Of a DNA stretch of 36,043 nt, positions 5,326 to 24,488 are shown in pieces. This stretch comes from an uncultured Bacteroidota bacterium. GTDB lineage: Bacteria; Bacteroidota; Bacteroidia; Chitinophagales; Saprospiraceae. The notes below the pieces were generated by a model. That model made no database searches. It saw only the letters and a list, made by a program, of their open reading frames with translations, and had not been told where the DNA came from. Location of the stretch: NCBI GenBank assembly GCA_903933805.1, contig CAIZLM010000075.1, positions 1 through 36,043 of the forward strand, in the 5' to 3' direction. Positions within the stretch are counted from its first letter, which is position 1; each line of letters begins with the position of its first letter. A program made the translations under genes and the position numbers.

Positions 5326-5355
5326 TTGCAAATGTGGGGTATTGTTCTATTTTTG
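5326..5355 (+). promoter_or_regulatory. Bacteroidota promoter of the first cotH-like gene
   Basis: TTG at 5326-5328, 19 bases, then TATTTTTG at 5348-5355 (TAnnTTTG). The start codon is 36 bases further on at 5391. Confidence 0.6.
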
Positions 5356-5390
5356 CGCTCTACACTGGATTGTTACCATCAACAATTGAC

Positions 5391-8300
5391 ATGAACAACA
5401 CACTTCTGAAGACACTGGTTATTGCCCTTTGCTGCGCTTCCATCAATGCCTTTGCGCAATTGACCCTCAACGAGGGTTCCAATAGGAATTATTCAACGAT
5501 AGCCGATGAAAACGGCGAGTACCCGGATTGGATCGAATTGTACAACGCCGGAACCGACACGGTACACTTAATCCACTATTCCCTCTCCGATGATGCCTCC
5601 AACCCAGCTAAATGGGTTTTCCCAAATGTATTTCTTTTGCCAGGACACTACAAAACCATCTTTTGTAGTGGCAAAGACCGCAAACCCATCTCTGGATTCA
5701 ACCATGTTCTGAATACCGGCAGTTTTAACCCCGTTGTGGGTTGGAATACCCATACCCTTTCCGATCCTTTTTATTGGGATGGCATTTCCAATATCCTCCT
5801 CAATACTTGCTCCTATAGTTCAACTGGATACACCACCAATTCTGTTTTTAACCAGACAGCAACACCTTATTATGCCACCGTTTTTGCGTTTCAGGATGGA
5901 AGTCCCTTTATTTGTGAAGCACAATATGGCACCAAGGCAAAATTAAGGCCTAACATGAAAATAAACGGCGCCACCATCGGCACCGATGTTGTCCAAAATT
6001 CTCCACTTGACTACCCGGCTCCTTACGGCAACTGGTACTGGGCAGCAAAAAATCAAATGATCATTCCCGCTGCTGAACTGTTGTCTGCCGGACTAACCGC
6101 AGGCAATATTTCAAGTATAGCGTTTGATGTGGCCGCAACCGATCCGAACACGTTCTACGACTACATCGACTTCAACATGAAGCTGGTTTCATCAGAAGAA
6201 GTAACCTCTTTTTTTGAACCGGTTGACACAAACATCAGCCTGCACACCAATTTTAAAATTCCCAGATCTGGCGGCAGCGTTTACCTGTATTCACCCGCCC
6301 AAGTACCACTAAGCACGCTTTTGGTAGATTGCGGCAACCTGGACAACAGCGTAGGTTGCTTTCCCGATGCATCGTCTAATCTTTCACTTTTTGAAAAAGC
6401 AACCCCTTCGGCTACCAACAACCTGTCTGATACCTTTGTGGGTTACCTGCTTGCTCCCAAGTTTTCAACACCTTCCGGCATATACAATGCCTCCATAAAT
6501 GTCAGTATTGACAACCCCAACGGAAGCAATACCTCTGTCCACTATACCTTGGATGGAAGCGACCCAACCACGGAATCAACCCTTTACACTGGAGCGCCCA
6601 TTAACATCTTTTATTCCAATGTGCTGAAAGCCCGTGCCTTTGCCAATGGTGTTTTATCCAGCCCAATGACAACCGCCTCTTACCTGTTGGGAATCAACCA
6701 TGTCACACCCGTGCTGTCTGTCATTACAGAAAACAAAAACCTGTATGGGCCTACGGGAATATTTGATAATTGGCCGCTTGACTGGGAGAAGGCGACCTAT
6801 GTGGAGTATTTTGATACCGCACAACACTTGGTTTTTGGACAAAATGCCGCCATGCAAATCGACGGCGGAGCCGGTGGAAGTCGGTCTAACCCGCAACATT
6901 CTTTCCGAATTGGATTGGATGACAATGTGCTGGGGGAGGGCCCGGTTGAGGCTTCCTTGATACCCAACAAAGCTGAACGCACAAAGTATAGTTCCTTGTA
7001 TTTGAGAAATGGCAGCAACCAATACCTGGTTTATCCATACAAAGATGCTTGCCAAGTGGCGTGTATGGGAGGAGAAACCAATAATTATTATTCCGCCTGG
7101 AGACCCATTACCGTTTATATCAACGGAACCTACTTCGGGCTCTACGAACTGCGGGAAAAATTTGATTCGGAATACTTTGAAACAGCGGACAACGCAGCAG
7201 CAGACTCCATCGATATTCTCTCCCAAAGTTATTGGTATGGAGCTGTATTGAGACCGGTGAAAGGATCCCTAGACGCTTTCTATGATTCTTATACGGCTTT
7301 CAAAAACCTGGATACTGCCAGCCCTGATTTTTGGAGCGATGCCGACAAACACTTCGACATGACCTGGTACAATGACTATATCATCGGAGAATCCTGGATG
7401 GGGAATACCGACTGGCCAGGAAATAACATTAAAATCTACCGATCCGATAAAACAGCTTTTCGCTGGAGATTCTGTCTCCTGGATATGGAACTATCCTTGG
7501 CCCCCAATGCGTGGACCGATGCCAATTTTGACCATATCAACTATATGTTGACGCAAGATGCCGCAAATCCCTACGTCAACATCTGGCTGAAAGGAATGGA
7601 AAATCCGCAATTCCGAAATTACTTCATCAACCGGTATGCCGATGTGATGAACACTTCCTATGGTATTGATCGGCTTTTGCCCATTGAAAACAACATGTTT
7701 GTCCAAACAGCTTTGGAAATGCCCAAAGAATTTCAGCGATGGGGAGACCCAAATCGTATAAACCAGCAAATGGCTGATTTTACCAACAACCACCTTGTTT
7801 TCCGGGAACAACTGGCTGCCAGAACAGAACAGGTGCGAAACCATATTATATCAAATTTTAACCTAACTGGGCCGGTAGCTGTCACGCTGAGTGTGTTTCC
7901 CCCGGAAGCCGGAAAAATAAAAATCAGCACCATTGTTCCCAAGGAGCTCCCCTGGACGGGCGTGTACTTCGACGGGAACCCCGTGAAAATTACCGCCCTG
8001 CCAAACCCCGGTTATACTTTTTCCCACTGGGATGCTAATACCGTTATGCCTGTTCAAAATACCCAGCCTGAACTCAACCTGAACATCCCGTCTGACGCCA
8101 TTTTCAATGCCGTGTTCTCCAACAACCTGAACGCCGGCCTCCTGACCATCAGCGAACTAAACTACCACGCAGACAGTACCCGAAACTCCGGCGACTGGGT
8201 AGAATTCCACAACATCAGCGATACCCCTTTAAATATAGCCGGATGGTCGTTTTCAGACACGACCGCCCCCTTGGGCTACGCGTTTCCTGCGGGGACCATC

Positions 8301-9395
8301 GTGCAACCTTACGGGTGGATTGTGTTGGCGGAAGACCCGCAAAAATTTGAATCGCAACATCCCGGTATCAACTTTTTAGGGCCAACAGGCTTCGGATTCA
8401 GCAATTCAGGGGAAACTTTGACCCTTTTTGATGCTGCTGGGGCCCCGCTGCTGGAGATGGTGTACGACGATTCAAAACCCTGGCCAATACCAGCAGACGG
8501 ATTTGGTTATACCCTGGAGTCTCTCAACGACAGCATCAACCCCTCCCTCCCGGAAAACTGGTTTGCCGGCTGTCTTGGCGGTTCTCCGGGTGGCCCACAC
8601 CAACCGTGCACCGAAACATTGATTTTCAGCGAAATTAATTACAACGCTTCGCCCAATGCTGATGCCGGAGATTGGGTGGAAATCATGAATACAACTGCCA
8701 TTCCGAAAGATATTTCCGGTTGGATATTCTCAGATAATTTGGATGCCCATCGCTATACCATTCCGACAGGCACCGTACTTCCTGCTTCGGGTTACTGGGT
8801 ACTCTACGAAGACTCCATTGCCTTCAAATCCCGTTTTCCAAACGTTACCAACGCAACAGGCCCTTTCATTTTTGGGCTGAGCGGTGGCGGTGAAGCGATC
8901 CGTTTGTTCGATGATGCCGGAAGATTATACCAATCCGTGTTGTACGATGACACAGCCCCCTGGCCGCCGGGCGCCGCAGGAAACGGATACACGTTGGAAA
9001 TTGTTGACCCTACGGGCAATAGCTGTGATGGTTCAAACTGGATGGATGGATGCCCGGAAGGATCGCCAGGTGGCCCATTCACAACGCCTTGCCCTACTAC
9101 GCAAATTTCAGAAATCCCATCAAAGAGTAGGGTGAACATCTTTCCCAACCCCTCCGGTGGTATATTCTCCGTTGTTTTTGACCTTGCTGAAAGAACAAAC
9201 CTCACGCATATTCAAGTTTTTAGCCCACTGGGAACTCAAGTATATACACAAACATTTTCTGCCAACCACGGCCCATTGACCATAGATATTGCCGGCGTGC
9301 CCGACGGCATCTACTTTATGATCCTGCACAATGGCCCCAATACTTTTTCGGAAAAAATTGTGGTAAACAACTCAAATACTACTTCCGGGCATTAA
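5391..9395 (+). CDS. Secreted CotH-kinase/lamin-tail multidomain protein, T9SS cargo
   Basis: A 1334-residue secreted protein. Order: signal peptide 1-23 ending AFAQ; lamin-tail domain at about 24-105 (GEYPDWIELYN); a linker region of unclear fold; a chitobiase/Fn3-associated domain at about 350-434 (VHYTLDGSDPT); a CotH domain at about 437-823 (INGTYFGLYELREKF, GNTDWPGNNIKIYR, RWRFCLLDMELS); a bacterial-repeat domain at about 827-914 (ALPNPGYTFSHWD); two more lamin-tail domains at about 916-1070 and 1076-1234 (GDWVEFHN, GDWVEIMN); and a type A T9SS sorting domain from about 1240 (FPNPSGG...). CotH proteins are atypical secreted protein kinases in sporeformers. Here the likely place is the cell surface or medium, and the substrate is unknown. 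The frame is open to 5334, but ATG 5391 gives the signal peptide and follows a good promoter. The adjoining DUF2805 gene is divergent. Confidence 0.9.
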   Translation: MNNTLLKTLVIALCCASINAFAQLTLNEGSNRNYSTIADENGEYPDWIELYNAGTDTVHLIHYSLSDDASNPAKWVFPNVFLLPGHYKTIFCSGKDRKPISGFNHVLNTGSFNPVVGWNTHTLSDPFYWDGISNILLNTCSYSSTGYTTNSVFNQTATPYYATVFAFQDGSPFICEAQYGTKAKLRPNMKINGATIGTDVVQNSPLDYPAPYGNWYWAAKNQMIIPAAELLSAGLTAGNISSIAFDVAATDPNTFYDYIDFNMKLVSSEEVTSFFEPVDTNISLHTNFKIPRSGGSVYLYSPAQVPLSTLLVDCGNLDNSVGCFPDASSNLSLFEKATPSATNNLSDTFVGYLLAPKFSTPSGIYNASINVSIDNPNGSNTSVHYTLDGSDPTTESTLYTGAPINIFYSNVLKARAFANGVLSSPMTTASYLLGINHVTPVLSVITENKNLYGPTGIFDNWPLDWEKATYVEYFDTAQHLVFGQNAAMQIDGGAGGSRSNPQHSFRIGLDDNVLGEGPVEASLIPNKAERTKYSSLYLRNGSNQYLVYPYKDACQVACMGGETNNYYSAWRPITVYINGTYFGLYELREKFDSEYFETADNAAADSIDILSQSYWYGAVLRPVKGSLDAFYDSYTAFKNLDTASPDFWSDADKHFDMTWYNDYIIGESWMGNTDWPGNNIKIYRSDKTAFRWRFCLLDMELSLAPNAWTDANFDHINYMLTQDAANPYVNIWLKGMENPQFRNYFINRYADVMNTSYGIDRLLPIENNMFVQTALEMPKEFQRWGDPNRINQQMADFTNNHLVFREQLAARTEQVRNHIISNFNLTGPVAVTLSVFPPEAGKIKISTIVPKELPWTGVYFDGNPVKITALPNPGYTFSHWDANTVMPVQNTQPELNLNIPSDAIFNAVFSNNLNAGLLTISELNYHADSTRNSGDWVEFHNISDTPLNIAGWSFSDTTAPLGYAFPAGTIVQPYGWIVLAEDPQKFESQHPGINFLGPTGFGFSNSGETLTLFDAAGAPLLEMVYDDSKPWPIPADGFGYTLESLNDSINPSLPENWFAGCLGGSPGGPHQPCTETLIFSEINYNASPNADAGDWVEIMNTTAIPKDISGWIFSDNLDAHRYTIPTGTVLPASGYWVLYEDSIAFKSRFPNVTNATGPFIFGLSGGGEAIRLFDDAGRLYQSVLYDDTAPWPPGAAGNGYTLEIVDPTGNSCDGSNWMDGCPEGSPGGPFTTPCPTTQISEIPSKSRVNIFPNPSGGIFSVVFDLAERTNLTHIQVFSPLGTQVYTQTFSANHGPLTIDIAGVPDGIYFMILHNGPNTFSEKIVVNNSNTTSGH

Positions 9396-15097: not shown

Positions 15098-15132
15098 AAA
15101 AAAAAACCCTTCACGGAGTACCGTGAAGGGTT
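15098..15132 (-). terminator. Rho-independent terminator of the 68-aa peptide gene
   Basis: A perfect 12-bp stem AACCCTTCACGG / CCGTGAAGGGTT with a four-base loop, followed on the minus strand by nine T. It lies 18 bp after the peptide stop codon. It is the only textbook intrinsic terminator found in the window. Confidence 0.92.
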
Positions 15133-15150
15133 ATAACTGCTTATGTGTTT

Positions 15151-15357
15151 TTACAGTGGAATAGTGCCACCGAGGCTATCGCGTAGATCCGAAAAGTCGG
15201 TAAATGAACGCTTGGACTCCTTTCCACCCTCTACTCGATTCATCTCCGACTTACCCAATACGGTCAAGTCAGATTCGATTTCGTCGAGTGAACGCTTCTT
15301 TTCCTGCTCCCCAAATAAGGATGCCTGATTCTTTTTTTTGCCAAATGGGAAAATCAT
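15151..15357 (-). CDS. Small double-glycine leader peptide (candidate RiPP/secreted peptide precursor)
   Basis: A 68-residue charged protein. Residues 34-45 (LGKSEMNRVEGG) fit the double-glycine leader pattern exactly: L-12, E-8, M-7, V-4, G-2, G-1. In known systems such leaders are cut after GG by a C39-peptidase ABC transporter. The remaining 23-residue core (KESKRSF...GGTIPL) has no cysteine, so it would not be a lanthipeptide. The gene is well supported as a transcription unit: a TTG-N19-TACCTTTG promoter, a leader of about 35 bases, ATG 15357, and a strong terminator. No modification enzyme or C39 transporter is in the window; an HlyD-like adaptor lies 7 kb away. The function is inferred from the leader motif only, and it could be an unrelated small cytoplasmic protein. 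Confidence 0.72.
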   Translation of the reverse strand: MIFPFGKKKNQASLFGEQEKKRSLDEIESDLTVLGKSEMNRVEGGKESKRSFTDFSDLRDSLGGTIPL

Positions 15358-15396
15358 GAGAGTACCGAGATTATATGGTGAAACACTACTTAGACC

Positions 15397-15426
15397 CAAA
15401 GGTATTGTTTTTTTCTATGACATCAA
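15397..15426 (-). promoter_or_regulatory. Promoter of the 68-aa peptide gene
   Basis: On the minus strand: TTG (15426-15424), exactly 19 bases, then TACCTTTG (15404-15397). This is the best match to the Bacteroidota consensus in the window. The ATG at 15357 is 39 bases beyond the box. Confidence 0.75.
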
Positions 15427-19760: not shown

Positions 19761-19847
19761 GTTGTAAAACCCTTGATTTTCAATTGATTATACGGCCACT
19801 GCTTTTACCATTCCGTTGGCTATGTGTAGCCTAATCACTTATTGTCT

Positions 19848-22103
19848 ATGAAAAATACTTTACTCGCTTTCTTGATTTTGTTTGGTTTTATCACAAAAAC
19901 TGCCGCTCAAAGCCTCTACACACCCAATGTATTACAAGAAATTAAGATCACATTCTATCAAGCCAACTGGGACTTCCTCCTAGATTCCCTGAAAAACCTC
20001 AACAATGGCGGTTTTTTGATGGCGCCTTCCGTGGAAATAAACGGACAATTGTTTGACAGCGTTGGCATAAAATACAAAGGAAACAGCTCCTACAGCACCA
20101 ACAATGGAAAAAATCCGATGCACATTGAGTTGGACTACCTCCTGCCCAATCAAAACTATCAGGGCATAAAAGACCTTAAACTTTCCAACAGCTTTGCCGA
20201 TCCGACGTTTATTCGAGAGCCCCTTTCCTACGAAATATTGCGACAATATACAGACGCTCCCTTGGCAAACCACGCCAAACTTTGGATAAACGGTGTTTAT
20301 TGGGGACTGTATGGCAATGTAGAAAGTATCAACAAACGATTTGTGCGCAACCATTTCAAAACAGATGGCAACAACCCTTTTTTCAAGTGTAATCCGGCAG
20401 ATTTCGACGGCCCTGGCACCGGAGGAAATTACGCTGACCTGGTTTACAGCAGCGCTGACAGCAGTTTTTACTACAACAAGTACGACATACAATCTGACCA
20501 CGGCTGGCAGGAACTGCTGTTTTTGATGGATACGCTGAACAACCATCCAAACCATGTGCGCACGCTCTTGGACGTGGATCGCGCCATTTGGATGCTGGCA
20601 TTCAACGTCCTTCTGGTCAACTTAGACTCTTATTCGGGGGCCTATGGACAAAATTATTACCTCTATCACGACCGCAACAACCGCTGGCTTCCCATCAGTT
20701 GGGATTTAAACATGAGTTTTGGCGGTTTCCCCCTGCTCAACATAGGAAGCGGGGGCGCTCTTTCAGTGGCACAAATGAAGCAACTGGATCCGCTGATCCA
20801 GTCTGGCAACAGCAACAGACCGCTGATCAAACAATTGCTCGCCAACCCTACGTATAAGCGTATGTACTTGGCACACATGCGAACGATGTTACAGGAAAAT
20901 TTCCTCAATGGATCTTACAAAAACAAAGCGCTTGAACTGCAATCGGTGATAGACGCTGCCGTACAAGCAGATACCAAAAAATTCTTTTCCTATACCAGTT
21001 TCCTCAACAACATCAACCAGTCTGTAACGGGTGGCTTTGGTACTGTTCCCGGGTTGGTAGATTTAATGGATGCCCGCAGCGCGTTTCTCCAATCCAATTC
21101 AAATTTCACCGCCATACCACCCTCTATTGCCAACATCCAAGCTACGTTGGGCAGTGTTGTCGAGGTAACCGCAACCATTCAGAACGCCCTGACGGTATTG
21201 CTTGCCTGGCGCACAGACTCTGCGGATGTTTTTCAAAAAAATACCATGTTTGATGACGGGCAGCACGCCGATGGTGCTGCCAATGACGGTGTTTATGGGG
21301 GAGCTTTTCCCCAAGATGACGCCCGCATGCAATATTATATTTATGCCGAGAACGCCAATGCCGGCGTTTTTTCTCCTGAGCGTGCCGAACATGAATTCTA
21401 TATAGCCAATCCATTCATACCCAATGCCGGTGATGTGGTAATCAATGAATTTTTGGCAGACAATGCTGTTGGTGCCGTGGATGAAGCAGGAGAACCAGAA
21501 GACTGGCTCGAATTATACAACAATACCATCAGTCCCATTACGCTGACTGGATTGTATCTCTCAGATGACCCCACAGATAGAAATAAATGGGCCTTCCCCG
21601 CAGGCGTTTCCATTCCAGGAAAAGGATATTTAATGGTTTGGCTCGACGATGACGCTTCGCAGGGGCCTTTTCACGCCAATTTTAAATTGAATGCCGCCGG
21701 GGAGCACATCATGCTTTCTGACGGCGGAAGCAATGTGATTGATGCACTATCTTTTGGCGCACAACAACCCGATATTTCCTACGGGCGCTACCCCAATGGA
21801 ACGGGTTCCTTTACGACCATGCCGACTACATTTAATGCCATAAATTCTCTGACAATCAATACATTGGAACAACACGCCGAAAACTTGATTCAGGTATTTC
21901 CCAACCCTGTCGCCGATGTTTTGACCATCCAGAGCAAGGAGGCATTACAAGAAATTAGGATTCTAAATATGCTGGGGCAACTGGTTGCCCTAGTGCCGCC
22001 CAGCGGCAACACTGCGGTACGGGTGCCCGTTCATACACTCAACAATGGGCTATACATCCTTGAAATTGCCGGACAAAAAGTGCGCATCGCGGTGCAACAC
22101 TGA
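19848..22103 (+). CDS. Secreted CotH-kinase protein with lamin-tail and T9SS sorting domains
   Basis: A 751-residue secreted protein. The signal peptide is 1-21 (ending TAAQ). The CotH domain at about 22-420 contains IKYKGNSSYST, NSFADPTFIREPLSYE, INGVYWGLYGNVE and the WLPISWDLNMSFGG block at about 279-292, the acidic active-site region of CotH kinases. A beta-rich domain follows at about 425-521 (DDGQHADGAANDGVYG). Next is a lamin-tail domain at about 525-665 (EPEDWLELYNN, YLSDDPTDRNKWAFP), then a T9SS type A sorting domain from about 679 (VFPNPVADVLTI). CotH proteins use ATP to phosphorylate surface or secreted proteins in Bacillus and some pathogens; here the target is unknown. HlyD-like and VTC genes follow on the same strand, resembling CotH-VTC gene neighbourhoods in other bacteria. 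ATG 19848 is chosen because it opens the signal peptide. Confidence 0.92.
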   Translation: MKNTLLAFLILFGFITKTAAQSLYTPNVLQEIKITFYQANWDFLLDSLKNLNNGGFLMAPSVEINGQLFDSVGIKYKGNSSYSTNNGKNPMHIELDYLLPNQNYQGIKDLKLSNSFADPTFIREPLSYEILRQYTDAPLANHAKLWINGVYWGLYGNVESINKRFVRNHFKTDGNNPFFKCNPADFDGPGTGGNYADLVYSSADSSFYYNKYDIQSDHGWQELLFLMDTLNNHPNHVRTLLDVDRAIWMLAFNVLLVNLDSYSGAYGQNYYLYHDRNNRWLPISWDLNMSFGGFPLLNIGSGGALSVAQMKQLDPLIQSGNSNRPLIKQLLANPTYKRMYLAHMRTMLQENFLNGSYKNKALELQSVIDAAVQADTKKFFSYTSFLNNINQSVTGGFGTVPGLVDLMDARSAFLQSNSNFTAIPPSIANIQATLGSVVEVTATIQNALTVLLAWRTDSADVFQKNTMFDDGQHADGAANDGVYGGAFPQDDARMQYYIYAENANAGVFSPERAEHEFYIANPFIPNAGDVVINEFLADNAVGAVDEAGEPEDWLELYNNTISPITLTGLYLSDDPTDRNKWAFPAGVSIPGKGYLMVWLDDDASQGPFHANFKLNAAGEHIMLSDGGSNVIDALSFGAQQPDISYGRYPNGTGSFTTMPTTFNAINSLTINTLEQHAENLIQVFPNPVADVLTIQSKEALQEIRILNMLGQLVALVPPSGNTAVRVPVHTLNNGLYILEIAGQKVRIAVQH

Positions 22104-22572: not shown

Positions 22573-23625
22573 GTGAGACCATTGTATAGTGGGTTTATTC
22601 TCTTTCTGATTTTAATGGCGGGACTGTATGTTCCGATGCAAGTGCCCTACCGGGCAGACAGTATTGGCAAGGTTCTGCCGGTGCAAGAATGGCAATTGTT
22701 GCAAGACCAAACAGGCCGACTTTCTTCGATTATCCGCGACAACAAAACAGGTGCGGCCCAACAAATAAATGCCTATCAGTTTCAGCAAGGTGATTTCTCC
22801 GGCCTTAGCATAGCGCTGCCCACCGGCGCCTTTGTCAATTTTGGCGATACCATTGTACGCATGTATTCAACCAGTCAGCGTCAAGAAATCCAAGAAATTG
22901 AAGCACAACTCAGTTTGTATGCCGCCCAATTAACGGCTGAAACGACAGGAGACAAGGTGCCCATCGTACAAGAAGCTGAGAACAAACTACATTTTTCGGA
23001 GCAGGATCTAATCTTAAAGGAGTCTTTGTACCAAACCAATAAACGCCTCAAAGAGGAGGGTCTGGTTGCCATGACCGACTTTCAGTCGTTTGAAAACGAC
23101 TATAAACTTGCAAAAATACAGGTAGATATTGCCCGAAAGACGCTTGAAACCGTTCGGACAGGCTTGAAAAATGAAAGTATCGGCATCACCGAAGCTCAAC
23201 TGCGCGGACTTCGGGATAGACGCTCGCTCTTGCGGCAGAAGGGTCTTTCATTTGTGTTGCGTGCACCATTTTCAGGATATATCGTGCCAACCGTTTTGCC
23301 GGAGGAAATGCTCACTTTAGAGCGTTCTGACGAATACTTGGTGCATATTCCCATCAAAGTAGAACAAATGGCGTACCTGAACGAAACATCCATAATCAGT
23401 GTCCGAGACGTAAAAACACAGCACCTTTTTCCAGCTAAATTGATTGGAACATTGCCCAGAATTGAAGTGCTCGACAACCGACAGGTGGCCATTGTATTAG
23501 CGCTCGTCGTTCCAGATAGCTCTGGATTGCGGCTTAGTACAGGTATTTCCACGCGTTGCAGCATTGATTTTGGTTCCATCAACCAGCGCGAATACATCAA
23601 ACGTGTATTAAATTTTACTTGGTAA
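22573..23625 (+). CDS. HlyD-like membrane fusion (periplasmic adaptor) protein
   Basis: A 350-residue adaptor with one N-terminal membrane segment (about 6-24). A lipoyl/barrel half domain at about 40-100 contains LPTGAFVNFGDTIVRM. An alpha-helical hairpin follows at about 104-225, rich in Gln, Glu and Leu. The second lipoyl half is FVLRAPFSGYIVP at about 230-242, and a beta-barrel region runs to about 335. Such adaptors link inner-membrane pumps to outer-membrane channels. No ABC transporter or TolC is adjacent, so its partner is not visible. It starts at GTG 22573, the only start that keeps the membrane segment complete; CACCTTTG at 22526-22533 is a one-mismatch -7 box. It lies between the CotH gene and the VTC gene, suggesting a common surface or export role. 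It could alternatively serve the double-glycine peptide encoded 7 kb away. Confidence 0.82.
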   Translation: MRPLYSGFILFLILMAGLYVPMQVPYRADSIGKVLPVQEWQLLQDQTGRLSSIIRDNKTGAAQQINAYQFQQGDFSGLSIALPTGAFVNFGDTIVRMYSTSQRQEIQEIEAQLSLYAAQLTAETTGDKVPIVQEAENKLHFSEQDLILKESLYQTNKRLKEEGLVAMTDFQSFENDYKLAKIQVDIARKTLETVRTGLKNESIGITEAQLRGLRDRRSLLRQKGLSFVLRAPFSGYIVPTVLPEEMLTLERSDEYLVHIPIKVEQMAYLNETSIISVRDVKTQHLFPAKLIGTLPRIEVLDNRQVAIVLALVVPDSSGLRLSTGISTRCSIDFGSINQREYIKRVLNFTW

Positions 23626-23729
23626 TGAGGCTTTAGCGATTGGGCAAATGGCTGTATCATTGCGTTCCAATCTTCTATTTTTTTGCCTAATCAGTTGCCT
23701 TTTTTTACAAACACATAAATAGCAGCAAG

Positions 23730-24488
23730 GTGCGTTATGAATTTAAGTACCTCGTACCGATTGAACAGTATGAAGCGCTCAAAGCCGCGTTGTTACCCTT
23801 TATGACACTCGATAAGTTTGCGCAAAAACAGCCCAATGGGCTCTATACCGTGCGCAGTATTTATTTTGACACACCGGGCTTCGATATGTACCACACCAAG
23901 ATAGATGGTGTAGCGCATCGGATGAAAGTACGCCTGCGTGGCTACAACACAGGTGACGACAATTCCACTGTTTTCATGGAAATAAAGCGCAAATATGAAG
24001 GTCCCATCCTTAAAAACAGATCAGATGCTCCATTTGGCGTTGTAAAAAAAATGTTTGAAGGCGCTTCGTTTGAAGACAGCACATCGAACATACACAACCC
24101 CGACAACGCCCGACGTTTTTTTTACCAAATATTGCGCAAAAACCTGCAACCAGTGGTCAACGTCATTTATGAACGGGAACCCTTCATGGCCAACACCTTG
24201 AACATTGACAATGACTTTCGGTGTACCTTTGACATGCACCTTCGGAGTATTGCTTACCCAAAAATCAGCAGTTTGTACGAGGAAGGACAGGTTCGATTTG
24301 TCTATCCGGGCTACTTCATCCTAGAAATAAAATTCAACCAGTATTGCCCAACTTGGGTAAAACCTATAATTGAAGGCTTTCAGCTGCGGAAAGAACCAGC
24401 ATCAAAATATGTGGGCGCCATTGACGCCAATCCTTTCATAAACGTGATGCGACGCAACGATATTTTTGCCAAAATGCCGGTGCGCTAG
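23730..24488 (+). CDS. VTC-domain protein (polyphosphate polymerase-like)
   Basis: A 252-residue protein made almost wholly of a VTC domain, the tunnel-shaped fold of the yeast polyphosphate polymerase Vtc4 and of triphosphate-tunnel enzymes. Visible blocks: FKYLVP near the N-terminus; VRSIYFDTPGFDMYHTK with following basic residues RMKVRLRGY; FMEIKRKY with KNRS; and FILEIKFN near the C-terminus, the acidic metal-binding strand. It has no SPX domain and no membrane segment. It starts at GTG 23730, since no ATG precedes the conserved strand. In many bacteria VTC-domain genes sit next to cotH and DUF4956 genes; here cotH and an HlyD-like gene precede it and no DUF4956 gene is present. The catalytic product (polyphosphate or other) is not established from sequence. 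Confidence 0.88.
   Translation: MRYEFKYLVPIEQYEALKAALLPFMTLDKFAQKQPNGLYTVRSIYFDTPGFDMYHTKIDGVAHRMKVRLRGYNTGDDNSTVFMEIKRKYEGPILKNRSDAPFGVVKKMFEGASFEDSTSNIHNPDNARRFFYQILRKNLQPVVNVIYEREPFMANTLNIDNDFRCTFDMHLRSIAYPKISSLYEEGQVRFVYPGYFILEIKFNQYCPTWVKPIIEGFQLRKEPASKYVGAIDANPFINVMRRNDIFAKMPVR

Follow-up and report, generated by a model that had tools for sequence, protein, structure and literature searches.

We report that a 68-residue double-glycine (GG) peptide encoded in a 36,043-nucleotide stretch of DNA from an uncultured member of the Saprospiraceae (the whole stretch that was analysed, hereafter the window) is probably one arm of a three-gene signalling module, in which a C39 transporter would cleave and export it and a cytosolic TPR histidine kinase would read it. 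The linkage of the peptide gene to the genes for a LytTR response regulator and for this kinase is well supported. An earlier reading, made from the window's sequence only, had called the peptide an orphan. This holds for the window's genus, and only there; in other genera the gene lies within a LytTR regulator - peptide - TPR kinase cluster.

The minus-strand open reading frame at 15151-15357 (codons without the stop, 15154-15357) translates to MIFPFGKKKNQASLFGEQEKKRSLDEIESDLTVLGKSEMNRVEGGKESKRSFTDFSDLRDSLGGTIPL. The features of the unit are as follows.

15424-15426, minus strand: -33 promoter element TTG, 19 nt before the -7 element (spacing 19 in 29 of 30 genus loci)
15397-15404, minus strand: -7 promoter element TACCTTTG (identical in 29 of 30 genus loci)
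15151-15357, minus strand: peptide precursor gene, 68 amino acids plus stop (translation, homologues, dN/dS)
15223-15357, minus strand: leader, 45 residues, ending in GG (15223-15228; GG at 67 of 68 loci)
15154-15222, minus strand: predicted core, 23 residues, free of Cys (position after GG)
15154-15177, minus strand: conserved tail SLGGTIPL, residues 61-68 (T65, I66 and P67 invariant, penultimate Pro)
15098-15132, minus strand: intrinsic terminator, stem at 15105-15132 followed by a T-run (12-bp stem, loop of 4, 7 G-C pairs)

The leader segment LGKSEMNRVEGG fits the L-12/E-8/M-7/V-4/GG pattern, and the product is as the sequence-only reading had described it, with this leader and a 23-residue Cys-free core. 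It was also right that no export or maturation gene adjoins the peptide gene, the flanking genes being pnuC and icmF (fused mutase). Searches with the single protein or with profile A1 (E up to 10) gave no paralogues in the peptide's own genome. One sub-cutoff match to TIGR04149 lies elsewhere in that genome (G000:C27:3383-3463, L169; E 0.1), where the weakly matching leader may belong to another GG peptide.

The proposed promoter, TTG-N19-TACCTTTG, is present, and with a spacing of exactly 19 it is kept at 29 of the 30 genus loci despite differing neighbour genes; the sole exception, L003, carries TACCTTTA instead. Its ranking as the best promoter in the window is not established by the sequence, since the window, counted on both strands, has 14 occurrences of the consensus TTG-N18-21-TAnnTTTG. 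The terminator, earlier described as the only textbook one, is the strongest of 51 terminator-like matches in the window, none of the others having as long a stem or as many G-C pairs; such matches as a class are at background (28 vs 24.1 in shuffles, and 23 vs 21.5). Upstream of the promoter, part of the genus (loci L003-L029) carries tandem ACCGTT-like repeats about 75-105 nt 5' of the peptide ATG and just before the -33 element, with a spacing of mostly 20-21 nt, which resemble a possible LytTR site. Their summed score was 294, with a mean of 244 and a highest value of 257 in 200 shuffles that preserve base composition only, for a motif picked after the sequences had been viewed and in sequences that are related. 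When any spacing from 10 to 44 was allowed, 42 was most often the best, and the repeats are absent from the window's own copy (best 9/12) and were not visible by eye in other genera; this candidate site was not used as evidence.

Homologues and purifying selection show that the 68-residue reading frame is coding and thus a real, conserved gene. Specifically, dN/dS was 0.02-0.14 in the 14 unsaturated pairs among 16 orthologue pairs (the pair L030/L031 being read from an upstream ATG, 106 codons), and the two saturated pairs gave pN/pS values of 0.05 and 0.20. In a single-protein search of 149 genomes, relatives with E≤1e-3 were found in 36 of 41 same-genus genomes, and 63 of the 149 had matches at E≤1. 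Profile A1 matched 98 of 398 genomes of the family (E≤0.1), and the broader profile A3 matched 91 of 213 (E≤0.001), spread over 54 of 112 genera. Applied to a phylum sample of 395 genomes, A3 matched six at E≤0.01, of which two belong to the same family (E≤2e-15 to 2e-16) and four are weak (E 2e-4 to 4e-3); the peptide therefore looks restricted to one Bacteroidota family, probably the Saprospiraceae.

The family has a three-block anatomy: a leader of the C39 type that closes with GG is followed by a linker whose length and sequence vary, and then by a conserved tail. The check on GG conservation in homologues that had been asked for came out in its favour, with GG at 67 of 68 loci and GS at L094. 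A penultimate Pro is present at all 68 (PQ 42, PL 24, PS 2), and T65, I66 and P67 are invariant among 16 genus sequences. The tail reads GGTIPL in the window's genus and (C)GGIVPQ-like in other genera, and the genus also has a leader that is longer by about 15-20 residues. The core holds no Cys at 37 of the 68 loci, the window's included, and one at 31, and this single Cys is often replaced or absent. In these counts the loci L094-L096, which belong to the window's genus, are outside the 35 other-genera loci and inside the 68; L032-L036 repeat the genomes of L003-L008 and are in neither the 30 nor the 68; and L081 and L091, with a leader-like match only and no tail, were left out before counting. 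L081 (G226) encodes another kind of GG-leader peptide, which has a longer core, lacks the PQ tail and matches the family by its leader only. Conservation across the GG had been named as a refuting outcome. It does extend past the GG, but what is conserved there is a distinct tail block set off by a variable linker, an arrangement more in keeping with a conserved signal than with an uncut protein. With a conserved tail and at most one Cys, neither a hypervariable bacteriocin core nor a multiply cross-linked RiPP would be expected.

When all neighbours at 45 loci were compared, two recurrent families dominated, a LytTR response regulator upstream and a TPR histidine kinase downstream, the latter of about 640 amino acids with TPR repeats, His_kinase and HATPase_c (Pfam; four relatives scanned). 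Outside the window's genus, tblastn searches of 35 loci that together represent 26 other genera located the regulator (identity to the L067 regulator 45% or more) on the same strand within 620 nt upstream of the peptide at 29, and the kinase on the same strand within 490 nt downstream at 31 of the 35; both stand beside the peptide at 26 of the 35, and contig ends account for three of the ten missing partners (the regulator at L083 and L093, the kinase at L082). Among the matches listed, 72 genomes had both peptide and kinase located, counting one peptide place per genome, and the peptide lies less than 700 nt upstream of a listed kinase place in 60 of them and is not adjacent in 12. Seen from the kinase, the 30 best loci divide into 25 with the peptide just upstream and five with no peptide within 900 nt upstream; the genomes of these five carry the peptide elsewhere. 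An ion-channel-like gene (named from its sequence) lies on the opposite strand near the module in 21 of the 45 loci (L057-L092), mostly about 1-2 kb upstream of the peptide.

The two genes also occur together. With kinship ignored, the kinase is present in 89 of 91 peptide genomes, the exceptions being G226 (leader-like match only) and G268, while 18 of the 103 listed kinase genomes (handles 42-304) gave no peptide match at the threshold used.

The sequence-only reading had also called for a C39 transporter in the genome, and one was found, as a single-copy C39-ABC transporter gene on contig C48. Across genomes, again with kinship ignored and with a cut-off of E≤1e-10 that admits some weaker C39-like matches, a C39 gene is present in 89 of 91 peptide genomes (no match in G258 and G282), and in 192 of 202 kinase genomes vs 54 of 196 kinase-less ones. 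It is seldom a neighbour: of the stretches fetched around 40 loci only 2 contain a C39 gene, more than 4 kb away, and a regex scan of 16 kb around the window genome's own C39 gene found no GG peptide beside it. In the same genus, L095 (G012) has a C39 transporter gene with 68% identity to that of the window's genome; it is on the peptide's strand, about 5 kb upstream. Taken together, the conserved L-12/E-8/M-7/V-4/GG leader and the C39-ABC transporter in the same genome are the features of a C39 (PCAT) substrate, and cleavage after GG with export by the C39 transporter is likely. The HlyD-like adaptor at 22573, earlier offered as a distant partner, did not hold up, having no Pfam match, NCBIfam scores far below the cut-offs, and VTC and UvrA as neighbours. 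In the window, this HlyD-like protein and the VTC-domain protein that follows it span 22573-24488, and 5334-9395 and 19842-22103 each encode a large protein that carries CotH, Lamin Tail and type IX sorting domains.

Judged by hydropathy alone, no clear transmembrane (TM) segment was found in 30 linked kinase ORFs (three of them partial) or in the window genome's own kinase. The highest 19-residue hydropathy mean over the 30 ORFs was 1.62, in a stretch spanning the start codon of one ORF, and the next highest, 1.60, lies inside a kinase domain; maxima this low make a TM segment unlikely, and its absence points to a cytosolic kinase. An AlphaFold2 model of the window genome's kinase (mean pLDDT 82.7, pTM 0.59, from an alignment of 32 rows) contains a TPR superhelix, one long helix and the kinase core. 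Structurally the TPR part aligns to many TPR proteins, among them LGN (Z 27.2), NprR (23.9) and Rap proteins (23.8). By sequence the best matches are designed TPRs, followed among others by kinesin light chain, LGN and RapF (E 4e-8). These matches are generic, the best being LGN and the designed and kinesin TPRs, and they do not single out the RRNPP quorum sensors. Positions at which a polar or aromatic residue is kept in 80% or more of the sequences are commoner in A helices (19 of 140 positions) than in B helices (4 of 109; P 0.008; helix labels assigned by hand). The A helices line the inner groove of a TPR superhelix, and we thus propose that the peptide's tail is read in the TPR groove of the kinase, which is fairly likely to be the peptide's receptor.

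The explanation that we favour is that the LytTR response regulator, the double-glycine peptide and the soluble TPR histidine kinase form one signalling module. The precursor would be transcribed from its own promoter, and the C39 peptidase-ABC transporter would cut it after the GG and export the product. Inside the cell, the TPR superhelix of the kinase would then bind either the whole released peptide or a C-terminal fragment that bears the GGTIPL or GGIVPQ-like tail, and binding would alter phosphorylation of the LytTR regulator and hence transcription. A peptide gene flanked by both genes of a sensing system with an intracellular-looking sensor is likelier to encode a signal than an antibiotic, and the signalling peptide is the one of the three earlier guesses that the evidence favours. 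The other two, a bacteriocin or a new RiPP class, fare poorly given a tail shared across genera, at most one core Cys and no modifying enzyme among the recurrent neighbours.

The weak point of this explanation is the re-entry of the exported peptide into the cytosol, which, like a role in density sensing, is conjectural, and the main rival is a purely cytosolic role. There, the peptide would not be usefully exported and would bind the TPR kinase as a small subunit, or the kinase would sense the uncut precursor and so gauge export. A kinase with no clear TM segment then requires no re-import, and two peptide genomes have no C39 match, but the GG leader is kept at all loci except one and C39 closely tracks both kinase and peptide, so that we give this rival a small but real chance.

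We regard it as unlikely that the peptide is an exported antimicrobial or other effector controlled by the adjacent two-component system without being its ligand. A GG leader and a C39 transporter are typical of bacteriocins, and several family members weakly match bacteriocin-leader models. However, the tail is conserved across many genera, purifying selection is strong, and no immunity-like gene recurs among the neighbours at the 45 loci.

In the window's own genome all four parts are present on four contigs, with the peptide on C75, the regulator on C19 (L147:7927-8694, 255 amino acids, 51% identity), the kinase on C205 (L106:7595-9499, 634 amino acids) and the transporter on C48. A second LytTR gene directly before the own kinase (L106:6741-7451) was considered as the module's regulator and rejected, as it has about 25% identity and the orthologue is on C19; a relative of it is present near the kinase in 5 of 12 additional stretches from the genus. 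The scattering of the genes, a tail that now reads GGTIPL, the longer leader, and an own kinase just 31-39% identical to those of other genera might mean that the peptide of the window's genus has moved out of the module and taken on another purpose. This is highly unlikely, given that the genus keeps all partners: the kinase was found in 28 of 31 genus genomes and the regulator in 37 of 42, at 49-55% identity over nearly full length. Finally, a modified-peptide (RiPP) precursor matured by unlinked enzymes is scarcely credible: 12 of 33 members match TIGR04149, a leader model of rSAM-modified RiPPs, at E up to 1 (best 2e-4), yet the window's peptide matches no model, TIGR04149 included, no modifying enzyme recurs nearby at the 45 loci, and the single Cys is not kept.

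The module offers a substrate candidate in about half of the family's genera as sampled by the searches, and the kinase and regulator linked to it put the question within reach of a test. Moreover, the orphan status of a small gene becomes explicable through gene order in relatives, as a module scattered in one genus with its parts kept. If the peptide is a signal, TPR sensing would be joined to a two-component output, and in the open-licence literature we found no such system described for the group.

In ComCDE and BlpC-type streptococcal pheromone systems the kinase is a membrane receptor for the extracellular peptide. The module shares with them the double-glycine peptide, the C39 exporter, a LytTR response regulator, here linked at 29 of the 35 other-genera loci, and a kinase of the His_kinase (LytS-like) type. 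It differs in having a soluble-looking kinase whose sensor is of the TPR type, with no membrane-spanning receptor kinase by hydropathy or in the model, and in that the host is a Gram-negative member of the Bacteroidota. RRNPP receptors are DNA-binding or Rap-type proteins whose propeptides are exported via Sec or PptAB, whereas here we find a histidine kinase and a C39-type leader. The RRNPP/RRNPPA systems of Firmicutes (PMC10075063, PMC9765709) have a cytosolic TPR receptor and an adjacent propeptide gene; the likeness lies in a TPR receptor, here cytosolic to judge from the absent TM segment, beside a propeptide gene in relatives, and in a conserved C-terminal part of the peptide. Pfam gave only TPR, His_kinase and HATPase_c in the four kinase relatives scanned, with no HTH or Rap-type effector domain.

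Bacteroidetocins (PMC6671954) have cores of 42-48 amino acids with Cys pairs, fragments that begin with Lys directly after the GG, and a gene that adjoins a C39 transporter and a membrane protein. The Bacteroidetes double-glycine leader and the Lys after GG are shared, whereas the core here has 23 residues and no Cys, and no transporter is nearby; the class II bacteriocin features of at least two core Cys and an adjacent C39 transporter are absent. HetC of Nostoc (PMC10986499) is a C39 exporter proposed to export a signalling peptide whose gene is not nearby. The likeness is a Gram-negative C39 exporter with a proposed signalling-peptide substrate and non-adjacent genes, and the difference is that there the transporter is known and the substrate is not, whereas here a candidate substrate is known and the transporter is assumed. 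A search of the open-licence literature returned no description of a LytTR - peptide - TPR kinase module. Tentatively, and with somewhat less than even confidence, the system may represent a hybrid form of peptide quorum sensing among Gram-negative Bacteroidota, in which a C39-exported double-glycine pheromone returns to the cytosol and has its tail read there by a soluble TPR kinase that drives a LytTR regulator. The module looks like a hybrid of ComCDE and RRNPP yet belongs to neither, as it lacks one defining feature of each: a membrane kinase in the first case, an HTH or Rap effector in the second.
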